The notes under the pieces: generated by a model
Seen by the model: only the letters and a program-made list of their open reading frames with translations
Databases searched by the model: none
Told to the model about the DNA's origin: nothing
Source: Sinomonas gamaensis
GTDB taxonomy: Bacteria > Actinomycetota > Actinomycetes > Actinomycetales > Micrococcaceae
Assembly (NCBI RefSeq): GCF_005876955.1
Contig: NZ_SSCL01000008.1
Coordinates: 124,001-188,000 of the forward strand
Length of the DNA: 64,000 nt
Reading direction: 5' to 3'
In this document: positions 3,738 to 49,642 of the stretch, piece by piece
How the letters are laid out: each line of letters begins with the position of its first letter
Numbering within the stretch: the stretch's first letter is position 1
Program-made: the position numbers and the translations under genes

Positions 3738-4472
3738 TTAGCGTTCGCACGCAACGCCGTCGTGGTCGGCGTCAAGGCCTGAGCGGTAACCGGGCTGCCC
3801 TGCGTACAGGGGCGCAGCACCGGCGGCCCGAGCCGCGGTGCAGTTGGCGTAGTACACGCTCGCCGGCGCCTGCTGTTGCGGCGCTTGTTGCTGCGCTTGC
3901 TGCTGGGCTGCCTGCTGTTGCGCCGCCTGCTGCTGTGCCTGCTGCTGGGCGACGCGGGCCGCCTCGGCCTGTCGCGCCGCTTCCGCTTGTTGCGCTGCGG
4001 CGTCGGCCTGGCGCTTTGCCTCCGCCGCTGCCGCGTCACGCTGGGCCTGCAGCTGGTCGGCGGCGGCCTTCGTCATCCAGACGCGTTTGCCGTCCGAATT
4101 GTCGATGCACGTCAGATCAACGCTGCCGAAGGTGTAGCGACCTCCCACCGCAGTGCACGAGTCGCCGTCGGCATACAGCGCCACGACAACCGTTTTCGTG
4201 GTCGTGGGGCACGGAGTCGATGACGTGCTCGCTGGCGCCGTGGACCCAGCCTTAGCGGCATCGGCGGAGGCGGATGCCTTGACCGTCGCCGTGACCGTTG
4301 GAGCCGGCGACGGACAGCTCAGCGTGGGAGTCGGCGAAGCCGTTGCAGCCACAGCGGCAGGAGCCTTGCTCGAAGATGCAGGAACAGCGCAGCCCGCTGC
4401 TCCCACGACGGCGCCAGCAATCAGAAGCGAAAGCGCGGCGCGAAAAATGACAGCATTATCCCCGATTGTCAT
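3738..4472 (-). CDS. excalibur calcium-binding domain lipoprotein with Ala/Gln coiled coil
   Basis: A 244-residue exported protein. The N-terminus is a signal peptide with a lipobox-like VGAAGC, followed by an Ala/Ser/Thr/Pro-rich spacer, a Cys-containing globular part ('ADGDSCTAVGGRYTFGSVDL'), a long Ala/Gln/Arg coiled coil with many A-A-Q-Q-Q repeats, and a C-terminal excalibur domain whose calcium loop D-A-D-H-D-G-V-A-C-E is intact. Excalibur domains are typical of actinobacterial and firmicute surface proteins. Start is ATG 4472, with GGAGG eight bases upstream and the signal peptide directly after; an upstream in-frame ATG at 4502 would add ten residues before the signal peptide and is less likely. 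The partner of the coiled coil is unknown. Confidence 0.82.
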   Translation of the reverse strand: MTIGDNAVIFRAALSLLIAGAVVGAAGCAVPASSSKAPAAVAATASPTPTLSCPSPAPTVTATVKASASADAAKAGSTAPASTSSTPCPTTTKTVVVALYADGDSCTAVGGRYTFGSVDLTCIDNSDGKRVWMTKAAADQLQAQRDAAAAEAKRQADAAAQQAEAARQAEAARVAQQQAQQQAAQQQAAQQQAQQQAPQQQAPASVYYANCTAARAAGAAPLYAGQPGYRSGLDADHDGVACER

Positions 4473-19834: not shown

Positions 19835-20473
19835 CTAGCCTGCTGTCGCGTTGCAGGAGGCCGTCGCCAGAGCACCGCTTCCGGTGTTCTTCGCTACGCT
19901 CTTGCCATCCACGATGATTTCGCAAGAGACGGAAGCGCTCTTGTCCTGGAAGTCAGAAGAGGTGACGCTCACCAATGCAGAGGTGAAGCCAGTCGACGCA
20001 ACGTCCTTCGACCAGTTCGCCGTGACGTCCGTCTGGCTTGTGCCATCCGGAGTCCAGTAATGGACGGTGGCCGCACCGCTCGTGGTCACCTTGTACTGGA
20101 TCGAGTGCTGCGCGCTCGCCTTGGCCGAATACGTCGCCAGGCTCTTGGAGATCTCGGTCGAGGCGGAGCTTACGGCCGCGGCAACGACGACGTTGACGAT
20201 GACCGCGATCACGAAGGCGATGACCGCGAGCACGAGGCCGATGATCGCCATGACCTTGCCCCCGAGCTTGCGGATGAGTGCAATCAGGGCGCAGATGAAC
20301 GCTGCGAGGCCGAGCACGAACGCGATGAAGTTCACGACCGGGATGAAGCTGAACAGGAACGCGATCGCGCCGAGGACGAGTGCGACGATCGCGAGCGCCG
20401 CGCTCGGGCGTGGCGGCTGCGGAGCACCGTAGAGCGGCTGCTCCTGAATGGGCGCGCCAGACGAAGAAGACAT
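19835..20473 (-). CDS. DUF4190-like membrane protein with MmpS-like C-terminal domain
   Basis: A 212-residue protein. A Pro-rich N-terminus ('LYGAPQPPRPS') leads to three hydrophobic helices (about 27-48, 50-68, 74-100) of the DUF4190 kind, followed by an external domain with the MmpS pattern: 'VHYWTPDGTSQTDVTANWSK', then 'SVSCEIIVDGKSV' and a final 'ATASCNA' Cys, so the two Cys may pair. MmpS proteins assist transport at the mycobacterial envelope; in this setting the role is open. ATG 20473 has AAGGGGG upstream. It is isolated. Confidence 0.75.
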   Translation of the reverse strand: MSSSSGAPIQEQPLYGAPQPPRPSAALAIVALVLGAIAFLFSFIPVVNFIAFVLGLAAFICALIALIRKLGGKVMAIIGLVLAVIAFVIAVIVNVVVAAAVSSASTEISKSLATYSAKASAQHSIQYKVTTSGAATVHYWTPDGTSQTDVTANWSKDVASTGFTSALVSVTSSDFQDKSASVSCEIIVDGKSVAKNTGSGALATASCNATAG

Positions 20474-24279: not shown

Positions 24280-25074
24280 CTAGCTCATGAACATGCGCGC
24301 GCGTTGGTGCTCGTGCCGCATCTGATGGATTTCGAGGGCGGGTGCCGCGGCGCCGAAGTGCCGCGGGTCGGCGATGCGGGAACGGACGACGGCGGAGGGC
24401 ACCTTCGTCCGGAGGGTCGCCAAGATCCGCTGGCCAGCGAGCTGGCCGAGCGGGATGGCGCGGACTGCGTTGTATGTCAGGGCGGTAAGGGTCGAGTACA
24501 GGTAGGCCTCGACCAGGGTCTCCTCGTCGAGGCCTTGGCCCGCGCCTGCCACTGCGAACGCAATTGTGTAGTGGCCGGTGCACCGGTTGTCCGCGACAGC
24601 TTCGGCGTACGCGTCGACGCCGTCCGACGGGAAGGAGTCACGGGCGATCTCAAGCATCCGGCGGCCCATCTTGAGGCTTGCTGACCTGATCTGGGCGGGG
24701 ATGAGGAGGGCAGTGAGCTCGGCGTCGAGGGCCTCCAACCCGCCGACGTCGCGTGATGTGTGCCCGAGATCGGGTCCCCCACCGCCGAGATCGGGTGCCC
24801 CACCGCCGACCTCGGCGCCACCAAGCCCGACCTCGGCGCCACCAGGCCCGACCTCGGCGGGGTGAGGACAGACCGAGCGGCACGCGCGGCGGACGGCGAC
24901 GGCGTCGGTATAGGTCAGCTGCGTCGAAAGGAAGCCGTCGAGCCAGACTAGGAGGGTGCGCTCGTCGTGCACCTGACCGGACTCGAGATACGCCTCGAGG
25001 CCGAACGAGTGGCTGAACGCGCCGGTCGGCAGCGCGGAGTCGGTGAGCTGCATCAACGCCGTCAGCCGCGACAT
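24280..25074 (-). CDS. ureF: urease accessory protein UreF with repeat-encoded insertion
   Basis: A 264-residue helical chaperone that bridges UreD and UreG. '[20 protein letters not shown]' at 7-26 and '[18 protein letters not shown]' are diagnostic, and the C-terminus '[11 protein letters not shown]' is typical. Between the helix ending '[10 protein letters not shown]' and '[11 protein letters not shown]' there is a Gly/Ala/Glu/Val insertion at about 70-110 (A-E-V-G-x-G-G, then P-D-L-G-G-G-G) encoded by five 21-bp tandem repeats; comparable UreF proteins have only a short loop there. The frame stays open, so the protein is probably made. ATG overlaps the ureE stop (TGATG). Confidence 0.92.
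24761..24865. repeat. 21-bp tandem repeat inside ureF, five units
   Basis: Five consecutive 21-bp units at 24761, 24782, 24803, 24824 and 24845. Units 3-5 contain GCCGACCTCGG or CCCGACCTCGG; units 1-2 carry the variant CCGAGATCGG. Because 21 is divisible by three the array is an in-frame seven-residue repeat in UreF. The same unit occurs outside genes at 28540-28635. Confidence 0.9.
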
Positions 25075-25541: not shown

Positions 25542-27656
25542 TTAGAAGAGGAAATAGCGTTGGGCGAGCGGCAGAATCTCCACGGGATCGCAAGTTGCGA
25601 GTTCTCCATCGACCCTTACCTCGTACGTCTGGGGGTCCACGTCGATCTCCGGCGTTTCGCCGTTGAATGGGAGATCCGCCTTTCGAAGCGAGCGAATTCC
25701 ACCGACGGCACGGATATGCTTTCGCAGCCCCAGTCTTTCGGGAACACCGAGGTCAATCGCGGCCCGCGAAAGGAACGTGATCGACGAACTCTGAACAGAT
25801 CTCCCATACGCGCCGAAGGCCATCCGCAGCGTCTGGGGCTGGGGTGTGGGAATGGAGGCATTCGGATCGCCCATCACCGAATTCGCGATCGTTCCGCCCT
25901 TGATCACCAGATCCGGTTTCACTCCGAAGAATGCCGGGTCCCACAGCACGAGATCGGCGAATTTACCAACTTCCACGGAACCCACGTAGTCGGCGATGCC
26001 CTGTGCCAAGGCGGGATTGATGGTGTATTTCGCGATATAGCGCTTGATTCTGAAATTGTCGGCGGCCGCGTCAGCTGAGAGGTTGCCCCGCTGAGCCTTC
26101 ATCTTGTCCGCGAGTTGCCACGTACGTGTAATGACCTCACCCACCCGGCCCATGGCCTGGGAATCGCTCGACATGATCGAGAAGACGCCGAGATCGTGAA
26201 GGACATCCTCGGCGGCGATGGTCTCGGGGCGGATCCGGGAGTCTGCGAAAGCCACGTCCTCAGGGATCTGCGGGCTGAGGTGGTGGCACACCATGAGCAT
26301 GTCAAGGTGCTCTTCGGCGGTGTTGCGCGTGTAGGGGATGGTGGGATTCGTCGAGGCAGGCAGGACATTTGGCTGCCCGGCGATGGCAATGATGTCCGGT
26401 GCATGGCCGCCACCGGCGCCCTCGGTGTGGAAGGTGTGGATGACGCGATCCCCGATCGCGGCGATCGTGTCCTCGAGGAAGCCGCACTCATTGAGGGTGT
26501 CGGTGTGGATAGCGACTTGCACGTCGTACTCATCGGCCACACGGAGCGAGGTGTCAATGGACGAATGCGTGGCTCCCCAGTCCTCGTGAATCTTCAGCCC
26601 GATCGCACCGGCCTCGATCTGCTCCTCGAGCGGCTCGGTTCGGCTCGCGTGTCCCTTCCCGAGGAAGCCGAAGTTCATCGGCAGGCCCTCCGCAGCCTCG
26701 AGCATGCGGGCAATATGCCACGCACCGGGCGTCACGGTTGTTGCCTTTGTGCCCTCCGCTGGCCCTGTGCCGCCGCCGATCATGGTGGTGATCCCCGACG
26801 CGAGCGCCGTCGGGACCTGATCCGGGGAGATGAAATGAATATGGGTGTCAATCCCGCCCGCAGTGAGGATCTTCCGCTCCCCCGCGATGATCTCCGTCGA
26901 CGCACCCACCACGATGTCCACACCGTCCTGCAGATCGGGGTTCCCGGCCTTGCCGATGGCTTGGATGTGCCCGTCGCGGAGCGCGACGTCAGCCTTGTAG
27001 ATGCCGGTGTAGTCCACAATGAGGGCGTTTGTGATGACGGTATCGGGGATGTCCTGGGAGCGAGTCAGCCGCCCATTCTGGCCCATGCCGTCGCGCAGCA
27101 CCTTGCCGCCGCCGAATACCACCTCGTCGCCGTAGACGGTCCGATCGTCCTCGACCTCCGCGAACAGACCGGTGTCACCGAGGCGGATGCGGTCACCGGT
27201 AGTCGCGCCGTAGAGCTGGGCATAGTGGGCCCGCGGGATAGCACGGTTGGGGATCCCTTGGCGGACCCCGTCTGGCGGGGGAACGGACGACGGCGGCTGC
27301 CCGCCGTCGTCGTTATTCCCGCCTTGCGGGGCGCGCGAGTCGAGCGGGCCGTCGGTGAGGTTCCGCAGACCGTAGACCTCCCGCGAGCCGGCGAGCGGCA
27401 CGAGCCGCACCGTCTTGCGGTCACCTGGTTCGAAACGCACAGCCGTCCCGGCGGGGATGTCGAGGCGACGGCCGCGGGCGGCGACGCGATCGAAGTCAAG
27501 GGCGCGGTTCGTCTCGGCAAAGTGGTAGTGAGAACCGACCTGGATCGGCCGGTCCCCGGTATTCGTAACATCGAGCTCCGTCACCGGGCGGCCAGCGTTG
27601 AGGACAATGTCACCCTGCGCGGTGACGGTCTGTCCCGGGACTAACTGTTCTTCCAC
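25542..27656 (-). CDS. ureC: urease beta-alpha fusion (UreB-UreC), catalytic subunit
   Basis: One 704-residue polypeptide carries the urease beta chain (about 1-103; '[10 protein letters not shown]' at 41-50) and the whole alpha chain (about 141-704), joined by an Asn/Asp/Pro/Gly linker at 104-140. Alpha-chain nickel ligands and catalytic residues are complete: His272 and His274, carbamylated Lys355 in GLKIHEDWG, His384, His410 in HTFHTEG, flap Cys457-His458 in MVCHHL, and Asp498 in SSDSQAMGR. It hydrolyses urea to ammonia and carbamate. GTG start has AGGAGG five bases upstream. Bacterial beta and alpha are normally separate genes, so the fusion is unusual. No stop codon or frameshift interrupts the joint. 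Confidence 0.93.
27286..27311. repeat. perfect inverted repeat inside the ureB-ureC linker
   Basis: GACGACGGCGG at 27286-27296 and CCGCCGTCGTC at 27301-27311 form an 11-bp perfect stem around CTGC. It lies exactly in the interdomain linker and encodes its Asn/Asp/Gly/Pro residues. It looks like a palindrome that would sit between genes elsewhere. Confidence 0.8.
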
Positions 27657-28106: not shown

Positions 28107-28538
28107 ATGCTCTTCGAACACGACGATGACAGCCCAGTCCGGATCCTCACCGAGGACGAGAGCTGGTTTCTGCTGGAGGACACTCGCTACGGCCGGCTCG
28201 TCACGTATGCGGCGGGCGAGCTGGACGTCGTCCCGATCAACGTCAAAGCGGTAAAGCGTCGGCTGCTCATCCGGACAACCCCGGGGACGAAGCTCATCGA
28301 GGTGGTTATTGGGGGCAAAGTGGCGTTCGAGGCTGACGCGATCCTCTCAGGCGAGGCGTGGAGCGTCGTCGTCAAGGGGAGCGCCAGGGTGCTTGAACAC
28401 AGCGGGGAGATCGAGGCGGCCGAGGCGGCCAAGATCGAGTCTTGGCTTCCGACGCACAAGGACGTCTACGTCGAGATCACTCCCGAGCATGTCGAGGGGC
28501 GCCACTTCGAGCTCGGACCAGAACCTGAGGAACTGTAA
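28107..28538 (+). CDS. pyridoxamine 5'-phosphate oxidase-family flavin-binding protein
   Basis: A 143-residue split-barrel protein. 'ILTEDESWFLLEDTRYGRLV', 'VPINVKAVKRRLLIRTTPGT' (FMN phosphate contact), 'KVAFEADAI', 'WSVVVKGSARVL' and a final 'HFELGPEP' fit small FMN-binding PNPOx-like or deazaflavin-reductase-related proteins of actinobacteria. Function is unknown. It is divergent from the urease operon and its stop is followed immediately by the repeat array at 28540. Confidence 0.8.
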   Translation: MLFEHDDDSPVRILTEDESWFLLEDTRYGRLVTYAAGELDVVPINVKAVKRRLLIRTTPGTKLIEVVIGGKVAFEADAILSGEAWSVVVKGSARVLEHSGEIEAAEAAKIESWLPTHKDVYVEITPEHVEGRHFELGPEPEEL

Positions 28539-28539
28539 C

Positions 28540-28635
28540 CCCGACCTCGGCGCCACACCACCCGACCTCGGCGCCCCACCACCCGACCTCGGCGCCACCG
28601 GGCCCGACGTCGGCGCCACCGGGCCCGACGTCAGG
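28540..28635. repeat. 21-bp tandem repeat between convergent genes
   Basis: Four full 21-bp units start at 28540, 28561, 28582 and 28603, and a partial fifth at 28624. Units start CCCGACCTCGGCGCC or CCCGACGTCGGCGCC. The array begins one base after the stop of the PNPOx-like gene and runs into the stop codon of the convergent ABC exporter gene, so it is the entire intergenic space. It is the same unit as the one inside ureF 3.7 kb away. Confidence 0.9.
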
Positions 28636-30664
28636 TTGTGGTCTCCCGGCCCGCGGTTGCCGCGGCGATCTCGGCGTCCACGTCAAGGCCGCCGGCGAAC
28701 TGGCTCATGTACAGCCGGTAGTACGCACCGCCACGGTCGAGCAGATCCTCATGGTTGCCCTGCTCCACGATCTTGCCGTTCTCCATGACGAGGATGGTGT
28801 CCGCGTCCCGGATCGTGGAGAGCCGGTGCGCGATGACGAACGACGTCCGGTCGCTCCGGAGGGCGCGCATTGCCTTCTGGACGAGCAGCTCGGTGCGGGT
28901 GTCCACGGACGAGGTGGCCTCGTCGAGGATGAGCAGCGACGGGTTCGAGACGAATGCCCGCGCGATCGTGATGAGCTGCTTCTCGCCCGCCGAGACGTTT
29001 GTGCCCTCCTCGTCGATCACCGTGCTGTAGCCGTCGGGAAGGGCCCGGACGAAGCGGTCAACGTACGTCGCCTTGGCCGCGGCCATGATCTGGTCTTCGG
29101 TCGCGTCGAGGTTCCCGTACCGGATGTTGTCGTAGATCGTCCCGCCGAAGAGCCACGCGTCCTGGAGCACCATGCCGACTTTGGAGCGGAGCTCGGCGCG
29201 GGAGAGGTCGCGGATGTCCACGCCGTCGAGCGTGATGCGTCCGGACTGGATCTCGTAGAACCTCATGATCAGGTTCACGAGCGTGGTCTTCCCTGCGCCC
29301 GTGGGCCCGACGATCGCCACGGTGTTCCCCGGCTCTGCGGTGAGGGACAGATCCTCGATGAGCGGCTTGTCCTCGGAGTACGAGAAGTAGACGTGCTCGA
29401 ACGTCACGTGCCCGTCGGTGACCTCCGGGAGGTGCTGGGTCGCGGTCTCCGGCTCCTGCTCGTCGGCGTCGAGCAGCTCGAACGTCCTCTCCGCCGAGGC
29501 GACGCCGGACTGGAGCATGTTCGCCATGCCGGCGATCTGCCCGAGCGGCTGGGTGAACTCGCGCGAGTACTGGATGAACGCGGTGGCGTCGCCGAGGCTC
29601 ATCTGCCCCGCTGCCACCCGCAGGCCGCCGACCACGGCGATGCCCACGTACGCGAGATAGCTGACCCAGTTCATGATCGGGAAGATCATGCCCGAGACGA
29701 ACTGCGCTCCGAACGAGGCCTTGAAAAGCTCCTCGTTCTTGCCGTCGAAGCGCTCGACCATGTCCTCTTGCCGGCCGAACACGGTCGCCAGCTCGTGGCC
29801 CGAGAACGACTCCTCGATCTGGCCGTTGAGCGCGCCGGTGTTCTTCCACTGCGCCTGGAACAGCTTCTGGCTCCGGCTGCCGATGACACCCGCGACGACG
29901 CCAGAGAGCGGCAGTGCAATGAGGGCGATGAGCGCGAGCTGCCACGACACGATGAACATCATGACCACGATGCCGAGCACCTGCAGCAGCGACGAGAGCA
30001 GCTGCGAGAAGGCCTGCTGGAGCGCCTGCTGGATGTTGTCGACGTCGTTCGTCACCCGGGAGAGCACGTCGCCGCGCTGGCGGGTGTCGAAATACCCGAG
30101 GGGCAGTCGGTTGAGCTTCGCTTCGACGTCACGGCGGAGCCCGGAGACCACGCGCATGACGAGCCGGTTGAGGATGTACCCCTGAGCCCACATGAAGAGG
30201 CCTGCCACGAAGTACATGAGCAGGATGACGGCGATCAGGAACGTCAGCTGGTTGAAGTCGATGCCCTTGCCCGGCACGAGGTTCATGCCAGCGAGCATGT
30301 CGGCGAAGTTGTTCTGCCCCTGCGCGCGCAGGCCTTCGACGATCTGGTCCTTCGACGCGCCCGCGGGCATCTGCTTCCCGATCACGCCGGCGAAGATCAC
30401 GTCCATGGCCTTGCCGAGGATCTTCGGCGCGATGACGGTCAGGACCACCGAGACGATGATGAAGGCCACGACGACGGCCATCTTCCCGGCTTCCGGCTTC
30501 AGCAGGCCGATGAGCCGCTTCGCGCTCGGGCCGAAATTCTTGGCCTTCTTGGCGGGCATGGCGCCGAAAGCTCCGCCGTCGGCCTCGCTGGGGCGGTACT
30601 CCTCCTCTTCGAGGTCGTCGGGCTGGATGCCCTCAGGGGCCGGGCTGCTCTTCTCGGCGCTCAT
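28631..30664 (-). CDS. heterodimeric multidrug ABC exporter, consensus-site half (TMD-NBD)
   Basis: A 677-residue half-transporter with six hydrophobic segments and a C-terminal ATPase: Walker A VGPTGAGKTT, signature VSAGEKQ in place of LSGGQ, Walker B LLILDEATSS with the catalytic Glu, and switch His in VIAHRLS. The N-terminus has a charged 70-residue extension before the first membrane segment. Its ATG overlaps the stop of the partner gene at 30661 (ATGA). Together the pair resemble TM287/288- or EfrCD-like exporters, in which this subunit supplies the competent hydrolysis site. Confidence 0.9.
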   Translation of the reverse strand: MSAEKSSPAPEGIQPDDLEEEEYRPSEADGGAFGAMPAKKAKNFGPSAKRLIGLLKPEAGKMAVVVAFIIVSVVLTVIAPKILGKAMDVIFAGVIGKQMPAGASKDQIVEGLRAQGQNNFADMLAGMNLVPGKGIDFNQLTFLIAVILLMYFVAGLFMWAQGYILNRLVMRVVSGLRRDVEAKLNRLPLGYFDTRQRGDVLSRVTNDVDNIQQALQQAFSQLLSSLLQVLGIVVMMFIVSWQLALIALIALPLSGVVAGVIGSRSQKLFQAQWKNTGALNGQIEESFSGHELATVFGRQEDMVERFDGKNEELFKASFGAQFVSGMIFPIMNWVSYLAYVGIAVVGGLRVAAGQMSLGDATAFIQYSREFTQPLGQIAGMANMLQSGVASAERTFELLDADEQEPETATQHLPEVTDGHVTFEHVYFSYSEDKPLIEDLSLTAEPGNTVAIVGPTGAGKTTLVNLIMRFYEIQSGRITLDGVDIRDLSRAELRSKVGMVLQDAWLFGGTIYDNIRYGNLDATEDQIMAAAKATYVDRFVRALPDGYSTVIDEEGTNVSAGEKQLITIARAFVSNPSLLILDEATSSVDTRTELLVQKAMRALRSDRTSFVIAHRLSTIRDADTILVMENGKIVEQGNHEDLLDRGGAYYRLYMSQFAGGLDVDAEIAAATAGRETTT

Positions 30665-32635: not shown

Positions 32636-34750
32636 TCAGCTCGCGCTATGCCGTCCTCGCGTCGCGATGTACAGCGCTGCTTCCTTCTGAAGCTGCCGCT
32701 CCGCGTCCAGCTCACGCTGGATCTCCGCGAGCGTTCCCGCCGCGTTGTCCTGGCGCTCCGCCGTCGCCCGCTGCTGTGCGGCGAGGTCCTGCTGGGCCAC
32801 GAGCTGGTCGGAGATCCGCGACATGAGGGTGGCGAGCTTGGCCTGCTGCACTGCGAGGAGACGCTGAGTCTCCTGCAGCGCGGCCAGCGTCTCGGCCGTA
32901 GTCTGCGGTGCCTCCGCCTCCGACAGCCGCCCTTCGGCGTCGGCGAGCAGGAGCTGGAGCTCGCTGTCCATCTGAGTGCCTTCCTCCAGCTGACTGCCCT
33001 CAGAGGAGCGGGCGAGGGCCGCGCGCACCGCTGCCCGGCGCGCGGGGGTCATGCGGGGCGAGTCCGACGACGGCGGGCCAGCAGGCTCGGCGAGGTCGCC
33101 GTCGTCGTCAGCTGCCTTGAGTCCGTCCGCAACAACGGCGGGTGCGGGCACGGCGGCGGGCTCGGAGCCGACGTCGACCATCGACTGCGCCACCGACTCC
33201 GCTGCCTGCTCGGTCGGCTTGCTGATGTCCACGGTGCGGCGCAGCGGGACCTCCTTGATGAAGAGGACCGCGATGAGCGAGACGATCGCGATGATGCCGG
33301 CAATGAGGAACGCCTGCGCGGAGGCGTCGCCGAACGCGCCGCGAACGATCTCCGCGATGGGGCCGGGCATGTCCTTGATGTCCATGCTCGCTCCGGTGCT
33401 TGATCCGGCCGGGACCTTGATGCCGTGCGAGGCGAGGCCGCTCGAGATGAGGTCCGTGGAGCGGTTGTTGAGGACCGCACCGAGGACGGACACGCCAACC
33501 GCGCCGAAGACGGAGCGGAAGAAGGCGACGGTCGAGCTCGCAGAGCCGATGTCCGCCGCGCGGACCGTGTTCTGGACGCCCAGGACCAGGTTCTGCATCG
33601 TCATGCCGAGGCCCAGGCCCAGGACGGCCATGTAGATGCCGGTGAGCCAGAGCTCGGTCGTGTGGTCGATCGTGCCCAGGAGCACCATGCCCACGACCGT
33701 GAGAGCCGACCCGAGGATGAGGAACCGCTTCCACTTGCCGAAGCGCGTGATGAGCTGGCCCGAAGCCACGGAGCCTATGAAGTTGCCCGCGATCATCGGG
33801 AGGGTCAGGAGACCGGCCTCAGTCGGCGTGGCGCCGCGAGCGACCTGGAAGTACTGGCCGATGAAGGACGAGGACGCGAACATCGCCACGCCGATAGCGG
33901 CGGAAGCGACGATGCTGAGGGCCGTGGTGCGCTCGGCGACGATCTTGAGCGGGATGATCGGCTGGGCGACCTTTGCCTCGACAACGAGCAAGAGGATGAG
34001 GCCGACGACGGCGCCCCCCACCATGGCGAGGGTCTGCCAGGACCACCAGTCGAAGTAGTCAGCCTTGCCGGCGAACGAGACCCAGATGAGGAGCGTGCTG
34101 ACGGAAGCGGTGAGGAGCACGGTGCCGAGCCAGTCGATCTTGGCGGGACGGCGGACGTGCTTGATCTTGAGCGTGGCCTGGATGAGGAACAGCGAGATCA
34201 CCGCGAGCGGCACGCAGACGAAGAACGTCCAGCGCCAGCCGAGCGGCGAGTCCACGATGAACCCGCCCAGAAGCGGGCCGCCCGCGGTGCCGACGGCGAG
34301 GACTGCGCCCATGTAGCCGGAGTACTTGCCGCGCTCGCGCGGTGGGATCATGGTGCCGATGATGGCCTGGGCCAGAGCCGTGAGGCCGCCCATGCCGATG
34401 CCCTGGACCACGCGGGCGCCGATCATCGACGGAATGTCCTGCGAGAAGCCCGCGACGACCGAGCCGACCACGAAGATCACGATGTTCAGCTGCGTCAGGA
34501 GCTTCTTGTTGAAGAGGTCCGCGAGCTTGCCCCAGATCGGCACGGTGACGGCGTTCGCCAGAAGCGCGGCCGTGATCACCCACGCGAAGTCGGTCTGGGT
34601 GCCCTTGAGGTCGGCCATGATGGTCGGGAGCGCGTTCGAGACGATGGTGCTCGAGAGGATCGCCGTGAAGAATGCGGCGAGGAGGCCGGTGAGGGCCTCA
34701 AGGATCTGACGGTGGCTCATCTGCGGAGCCGCAACATCAGCGTGCTGCAA
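32636..34750 (-). CDS. DHA2-family (EmrB/QacA) MFS efflux pump with coiled-coil C-terminal extension
   Basis: A 704-residue proton-driven drug exporter with 14 hydrophobic segments in the first 520 residues. DHA2 motifs are present: 'TIVSNALPTIMADL', 'WGKLADLFNKK', 'GARVVQGIGMGGLTALAQA' and 'PRERGKYSGYMGAVLAVGT' (motif C area). The last 180 residues are soluble: a Pro/Ala/Asp-rich hinge, then a Gln/Ala/Glu-rich coiled coil ('QQAKLATLMSRISDQLVAQQ'). This tail is absent from ordinary EmrB proteins. The start is TTG 34750, where AGAAGGAGG lies six bases upstream, overlapping the 3' end of the marR gene by 14 bases; an earlier TTG at 34780 has no ribosome binding site. Confidence 0.9.
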   Translation of the reverse strand: MQHADVAAPQMSHRQILEALTGLLAAFFTAILSSTIVSNALPTIMADLKGTQTDFAWVITAALLANAVTVPIWGKLADLFNKKLLTQLNIVIFVVGSVVAGFSQDIPSMIGARVVQGIGMGGLTALAQAIIGTMIPPRERGKYSGYMGAVLAVGTAGGPLLGGFIVDSPLGWRWTFFVCVPLAVISLFLIQATLKIKHVRRPAKIDWLGTVLLTASVSTLLIWVSFAGKADYFDWWSWQTLAMVGGAVVGLILLLVVEAKVAQPIIPLKIVAERTTALSIVASAAIGVAMFASSSFIGQYFQVARGATPTEAGLLTLPMIAGNFIGSVASGQLITRFGKWKRFLILGSALTVVGMVLLGTIDHTTELWLTGIYMAVLGLGLGMTMQNLVLGVQNTVRAADIGSASSTVAFFRSVFGAVGVSVLGAVLNNRSTDLISSGLASHGIKVPAGSSTGASMDIKDMPGPIAEIVRGAFGDASAQAFLIAGIIAIVSLIAVLFIKEVPLRRTVDISKPTEQAAESVAQSMVDVGSEPAAVPAPAVVADGLKAADDDGDLAEPAGPPSSDSPRMTPARRAAVRAALARSSEGSQLEEGTQMDSELQLLLADAEGRLSEAEAPQTTAETLAALQETQRLLAVQQAKLATLMSRISDQLVAQQDLAAQQRATAERQDNAAGTLAEIQRELDAERQLQKEAALYIATRGRHSAS

Positions 34751-49559: not shown

Positions 49560-49579
49560 GGGGACAGACTAGCGGCGCC

Positions 49580-49642
49580 CGGCTCCCCAGGTTCTCCGCC
49601 CGGCTCCCCAGATTCTCAGCCGGGCTCCCCAAGTTCACAGGG
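49580..49642. repeat. three-unit 21-bp array with TCCCCA core
   Basis: Units start at 49580, 49601 and 49622 and carry CGGCTCCCCAGGTTCTC, CGGCTCCCCAGATTCTC and GGGCTCCCCAAGTTCAC. An inverted copy (GAAGAACTGGGGAGC) occurs at the end of the gap near 49717-49731, at the stop of the deaminase gene. The array lies between two co-oriented minus-strand genes. Confidence 0.8.

Follow-up and report, generated by a model that had tools for sequence, protein, structure and literature searches.

The MIRU/VNTR minisatellites of mycobacteria are short tandem arrays found at many loci, some of them at gene junctions, and REP/BIME elements are intergenic, lie near gene ends and are paired in inverted orientation; we know of no REPs that are 21-bp tandem arrays. 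The RPE of Rickettsia, according to the published account (PMC2229807), are dispersed intergenic repeats that also occur in frame inside conserved protein genes, and are elements of 105-146 bp with terminal inverted repeats and long stem-loops. We report here a family of 21-bp tandem repeats of the genus Sinomonas, one array of which lies within the gene for UreF. The Sinomonas arrays are like MIRU/VNTR minisatellites in having short tandem units at many loci, but the unit is shorter, arrays lie inside structured genes, and close neighbours are strictly oriented. As in REP/BIME, they occur between genes, near gene ends and in pairs of inverted orientation. Like the RPE as described in that account, they are found both in intergenic DNA and in frame in conserved genes (12 of 38 arrays, in 10 genes), but their unit is 21 bp, they form tandem arrays of 2-14 units, and paired arrays have a fixed orientation; they resemble RPE in being tolerated inside proteins and are not members of the RPE family. 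A REP/RAYT identity was rejected, the RAYT transposase (Y1_Tnp, PF01797) being absent at E <= 0.001 from all 15 Sinomonas genomes searched with a profile that was positive in 5 of 14 control genomes. A CRISPR array was ruled out by the recurrence of inter-box segments between arrays (CGCCACACCA after the CC centre in four arrays). Titles and abstract openings of the literature matches listed contain no description of such repeats in Sinomonas.

The window, i.e. the whole stretch of 64,000 nucleotides that was analysed (G000:C34:124001-188000), is part of a 4.32-Mb draft genome in 35 contigs. This genome (G000) belongs to a sample of 15 Sinomonas genomes, one per species and in draft contigs, which includes Sinomonas mesophila MPKL 26 (G008) and Sinomonas sp. 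ASV322 (G012). Array detection was seeded by pattern, and genes were called with our own codon-bias script and not with a published gene finder. The features of the window that concern the repeat are as follows.

24280..25074, minus strand: ureF, 264 aa, called by codon bias, with a match to PF01730 (E 2.3e-41), carrying the in-frame 21-bp array
24743..24752, no strand assigned: degenerate sixth box CCGACGTCGC, in register, with one mismatch
24764..24805, minus strand: two 21-bp units of inverted orientation, read as PDLG in UreF
24806..24857, plus strand: three 21-bp units of forward orientation (CCGACCTCGGCGCC...), read as AEVG in UreF
28107..28538, plus strand: gene preceding the intergenic array, Pyridox_ox_2 family (PF12900, E 3.5e-20)
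28541..28613, plus strand: intergenic array of four forward units between convergent genes, with a degenerate fifth box at 28625
28631..30664, minus strand: ABC transporter gene (PF00664, PF00005), the 3' end of which closes the intergenic array

The array in ureF is real. Its CCGANNTCGG boxes begin at 24764, 24785, 24806, 24827 and 24848, in exact 21-bp steps, and a 17-mer that matches eight times in the window (shuffle mean 1.83) reached at least eight matches in 1 of 100 shuffles. On the plus strand, units 1-2 of the array (24764-24857) are of the inverted and units 3-5 of the forward subtype; spacer sequences differ between the two, Tandem Repeats Finder (TRF) treats them as separate arrays, and UreF reads them as AEVG three times followed by PDLG twice, in steps of seven residues. 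An earlier note on this DNA had described five 21-bp units encoding a seven-residue repeat. The five boxes at 21 bp stand, but two of the units are oppositely oriented, so they are not five copies of one unit. In the same way, its equation of the UreF unit with that of the intergenic array at 28540 holds for the three forward units, which match 28541-28613, but not for the two inverted ones, which differ. The intergenic array follows 3.7 kb to the right, its first box starts at the third base past the stop codon ending at 28538, and a search returned no plasmid match to it. The window also contains two further 21-bp tandem repeats with unrelated units (49576-49636 and 20197-20248) and a CTG-rich compound tandem repeat whose periods run from 12 to 42 bp (3864-3950).

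A UreF match was found in 12 of the 15 genus genomes, including G000. Nine of the other 11 orthologues are without an array, and the remaining two carry repeats of the family: UreF of S. mesophila has its own full array in the same loop, with an orientation that also switches midway, and the loop of G005 holds two degenerate units (AEGGSNH AEGGSRT) with 2 mismatches in 10 core positions each. An equivalent non-repetitive insertion, which would have spoken against the earlier note, was therefore absent from these orthologues. The AlphaFold model built from a 12-sequence alignment (mean pLDDT 78) has helices at 38-68 and 110-122, with the insert between them at a block-mean pLDDT of 45-55, i.e. 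the array is predicted to be a low-confidence, loop-like stretch between two helices, as the note had supposed. Foldseek searches with the model retrieved UreF of H. pylori alone and in complexes (4hi0, 3sf5, 3cxn) and UreF of Klebsiella (6jc4), and a profile alignment to H. pylori UreF (2wgl) showed no such insert in 2wgl. The array would lengthen a loop of no known function.

Further copies of the element are numerous. G000 contains 100 box pairs at 21-bp spacing compared with none for a reversed-pattern control, and none at spacings of 15-20 bp (reversed control, one); the oriented pattern has 57 forward and 32 reverse matches. Across the genus, the strict pattern yielded 100 pairs in G000, 42 in G012, 15 in G005, one in G008 and 0-3 in each of the other 11 genomes. 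The core of S. mesophila is diverged (CCCCANNTCGGCG), and with a relaxed pattern G008 gave 40 forward and 52 reverse matches (92), G005 14 and 14 (28), and G012 26 and 16 (42), with 1-2 matches in G001, G004 and G013 and none in the other eight. The family is abundant in 4 of the 15 genus genomes. In a sample of 295 genomes from the bacterial family, of which 15 were Sinomonas, genomes of other genera had 0 or 1 match each. A three-unit pattern run against the genome contigs of 84,980 species recovered 27 stretches from two Sinomonas genomes and one from each of six unrelated genomes, 33 in all. These six each contain a 21-bp tandem array by TRF, most with units unlike the Sinomonas family, the unit of a Clostridia MAG (L163) being similar. 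Viral contigs gave three stretches with one pattern match each. Units differ on average at 3.5 positions within and 6.1 positions between arrays. An openness of the unit in all six frames was dropped as a special trait, since in two of the five units sampled a stop codon interrupts one frame.

For 38 arrays (from 20 stretches around G000 arrays, one added stretch and the window), the position relative to genes was classified by array midpoint; the Pfam-less open reading frame of L069 (8292-9398), the all-repeat frame of L071 and small low-scoring frames were not counted as genes. Twelve arrays lie within 10 genes and 26 are intergenic, which bears out the earlier claim that one DNA element lives both inside and outside genes. 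The arrays in genes are as follows.

UreF (two arms)
HrpA helicase with DUF3418
ABC transporter, tail
Lipoyl-dependent acyltransferase (E2), linkers 1 and 2
CysD-like protein (PAPS_reduct), N-terminus
LUD-domain protein, N-terminus
DUF4194 protein, tail
DUF6707 protein
DnaX, linker
AMP-binding enzyme

All 12 sit in loops, linkers or tails. Nine are read in phase 1 (AEVG/PDLG), three in phase 0 (PTSA/PKSG) and none in the arginine-rich phase 2, although the edge of the L072 array, which is counted as intergenic because its midpoint is what places it, overlaps with its first box the last codons of rmuC in this otherwise unused phase. Whether copies in genes are always in frame, a check proposed in the note, was answered positively for all 12 arrays, each of which lies within one open frame; in part this follows from the gene calls themselves, as an array that broke the frame would not have counted as genic. 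With two reading phases in use for one DNA sequence and most copies between genes, what spreads is the DNA and not the peptide. The earlier idea of selection for a frame-neutral period found no support: the 21-bp period is shared by all 26 intergenic arrays, and just 12 of the 38 arrays are genic, whereas our own gene calls make about 93% of the window coding, which fits a purging of harmful insertions and not a period shaped for genes.

The orthologous linkers were compared in six relatives (G012, G008, G005, G014, G007, G001; four for DUF6707), using 40 of 42 located regions and leaving out DUF6707 of G008 and G005. Family arrays are present in E2 linkers 1 and 2 of G012, G008 and G005, in the DnaX linker of G008 and G005, in HrpA of G012 and G008 (in G005, HrpA contains a similar kind of 21-bp repeat, in 2.6 copies), at the LUD site of G005 and at the DUF4194 tail of G012; the arrays of CysD and DUF6707 have no counterpart among the relatives examined. 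At every shared site (E2 linkers 1 and 2, DnaX, HrpA, LUD, DUF4194 tail and UreF loop) the orientation relative to the gene is the same, and the reading phase likewise agrees. G014, G007 and G001 have no family arrays at the compared sites; their linkers are variable, some with other tandem repeats. In family-free relatives (L109, L110, L121, L128, L145-L147), other tandem arrays with periods of 15, 18, 30, 33 and 42 bp occupy these linkers or their vicinity; an GTACCCGA motif recurs in some of them, with a period of 18 or 31-33 bp. In G005 the parts of dnaX on either side of the repeat linker are in different reading frames (L114), owing either to a sequencing error or to a true frameshift.

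In an unrooted tree built on 2,650 columns, G001 pairs with G012 (96), G008 with G005 (100) and G014 with G007 (100); with G008 and G005 as a deep branch, the simplest history would be an array-bearing ancestor followed by losses. The intergenic array pair flanking an AbiEi-like gene (L062) is in the same place in G000, G008 and G005, and in G012 its right arm aligns, with a reverse array 1.2 kb to the left. Beyond hrpA, G001 carries a two-unit array that G000 lacks, and S. mesophila has a four-unit array between two genes (L185 1741-1879) where the equivalent place in G000 (L070 around 4848) is empty, so gains and losses are ongoing. Two occupied/empty junctions were aligned, and their flanks are too diverged for a target-site duplication, as a MITE would leave, to be read. 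Across seven sites the fourth unit base is typical of the species: all 28 units of G000 and all 22 of G012 have G, and 21 of 23 units of G008 and 15 of 22 of G005 have C, counting one palindromic UreF box in both orientations. Whole units differ by 6.14 mismatches within a species at different sites, by 6.55 at the same site between species and by 7.05 when both differ; as the first value is only slightly below the second, a case for concerted evolution rests mainly on the one base.

The fused urease genes contain further repeats. Urease beta and alpha align as a single frame, like that of the window (25542-27656), in seven relatives (G014, G007, G001, G013, G012, G008, G005), and are separate genes in the outgroup species G003 and G002. 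The fusion linker (L195, L196, L197) holds two units of the 21-bp family each in G008 and G005 and seven related seven-residue repeats in G012, a GACGACGG...CCGTCGTC palindrome in G000, G014, G007 and G013, and neither in G001, apart from a half-like GACGACGG. In G005 the units begin exactly at the point where, in G003, the stop codon follows GGCCCCTCGAC, and in G008 six bases after this point; the repeats may have caused the fusion. In the window, the linker palindrome is GACGACGGCGGctgcCCGCCGTCGTC (27286-27311), and a second GACGACGG...CCGTCGTC hairpin is located at 33066-33106. Hairpins of the GACGACGGCGGctgcCCGCCGTCGTC type number 15-65 per genome in the 15 Sinomonas genomes, compared with 0-4 for the reversed pattern.

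The orientation of neighbouring arrays was counted from coordinates transcribed by hand for 36 arrays of G000, 33 of G008, 15 of G005 and seven of G012 among the matches listed, leaving out the palindromic double match C12:307760 and two G012 matches on C6 (CCCAA type). Neighbours less than 2 kb apart were arranged reverse-then-forward in 19 of 19 cases from four genomes; the number of independent cases is lower, because several represent one locus seen in more than one species. Below 5 kb there were 22 reverse-forward, no forward-reverse, five forward-forward and no reverse-reverse neighbours, and within 20 kb the corresponding numbers were 22, 2, 8 and 0; the rule fades at longer distances. 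One further neighbour pair of G012 agrees with it, as do all 13 opposite-orientation pairs in the fetched G000 stretches and the window. The arms of a cluster are on average not inverted copies of each other: in 13 G000 clusters they differ by a mean of 6.97 mismatches, compared with 6.29 when right arms are shuffled, and arms are alike in single clusters such as L073. Two other candidate features were discarded, namely a G-rich strand pointing to the cluster centre, since some subtypes are not G-rich there, and a common central hairpin, since GACGACGG...CCGTCGTC lies between the arms of L064 and L076 and was found by pattern in no other G000 cluster. A similar hairpin is present in the G012 locus L091, with half-like pieces in L071 and L072; the GACGACGG...CCGTCGTC hairpins between arms look like local terminator-like palindromes.

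We consider it probable that the UreF array is a copy of a dispersed CCCGAnnTCGGCGnnnnnnnn 21-bp minisatellite family of part of Sinomonas, which is neutral and is purged from genes except where it is harmless. Units would be gained and lost by slippage or unequal recombination, and ectopic gene conversion, i.e. sequence exchange between loci, would keep arrays alike within a genome; insertions into genes would escape purging only in tolerant protein segments, where the 21-bp period would make changes in copy number frame-neutral. Chance low-complexity sequence in a GC-rich genome, to which the single three-unit matches in six unrelated genomes might be ascribed, is refuted for Sinomonas by the counts (100 pairs against none in the reversed control, none at 15-20 bp spacing, 0 or 1 match per sampled genome of other genera) and has practically no credibility left. 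A favour at the level of the peptide, with flexible linkers converging on AEVG or PTSA repeats, is very improbable and is contradicted as the main cause: the placement of the 12 in-gene arrays in loops, linkers or tails, their avoidance of the arginine-rich phase and the fact that some family-free relatives fill these linkers with tandem repeats of other kinds (12-42 bp) would agree with it, but the same DNA unit is intergenic in 26 of 38 arrays, and identical DNA is read in two phases and both orientations.

A mobile insertion element of the REP/RAYT, MITE or RPE-like kind, inserting pre-made palindromic pieces, could explain why copies are dispersed, why they lie in frame in conserved genes, as reported for the Rickettsia RPE (PMC2229807), and why G001 and G008 have arrays where G000 has none. 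We nevertheless think such an element improbable, since Y1_Tnp/RAYT, the transposase family searched, was found in 0 of 15 genomes, element length is not fixed, the arms of the 13 clusters are no more alike than shuffled ones, and the shared sites indicate descent. Also unlikely, though less so, is that the arrays are functional DNA sites, bound by a chromosome-organising protein or acting as bidirectional terminators or insulators, with a core every two helical turns and paired arrays bracketing genes in fixed orientation. The exact 21-bp spacing, the orientation rule (19 of 19), the L062 pair kept in place across several species, and an excess between convergent genes (11 of 26 intergenic arrays compared with 10 of 64 background junctions more than 2.5 kb from any array) are in line with such a function. 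So is the conservation of core positions 1-5 and 8-13 (84-99% in 134 G000 units, compared with <=73% at positions 14-21), but most core positions were part of the search patterns, a bias that spares only positions 12 and 13 (89% and 84%). Against such a function, 11 of the 15 genus genomes have next to no copies of the family, 12 of the 38 arrays fall within coding sequence, and the core palindrome is broken in S. mesophila (CCCCANNTCGG), which also weakens the dyad-symmetric box as an essential feature.

The neutral minisatellite remains our preferred reading, but pure neutrality leaves the reverse-then-forward orientation (19 of 19) unexplained. Selection against direct repeats that would delete the intervening DNA could account for the absence of same-direction neighbours, but not for that of forward-reverse ones. 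Arms up to about 2 kb apart always point outward alike and are not copies of each other, and we tentatively propose, as a rather doubtful addition, that a process sensitive to DNA polarity lays down or maintains the arrays. Such a process might extend 3' ends at breaks on a template, act through Chi-like recombination sites, or switch templates within a replication fork.

What lifts this family above an ordinary repeat is its orientation rule, an anomaly that is both sharp and testable. If a polarity-sensing process were true, the arrays would represent a new kind of dispersed bacterial repeat, with a core sequence that shifts genome-wide between species. The presence of family units where the outgroups have a stop codon suggests that such repeats can help to fuse genes. 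Sinomonas is a free-living and easily sequenced genus for following short repeats in and out of genes across species, and it should be possible to follow there where repeats are tolerated, how loci stay alike and how proteins lengthen.
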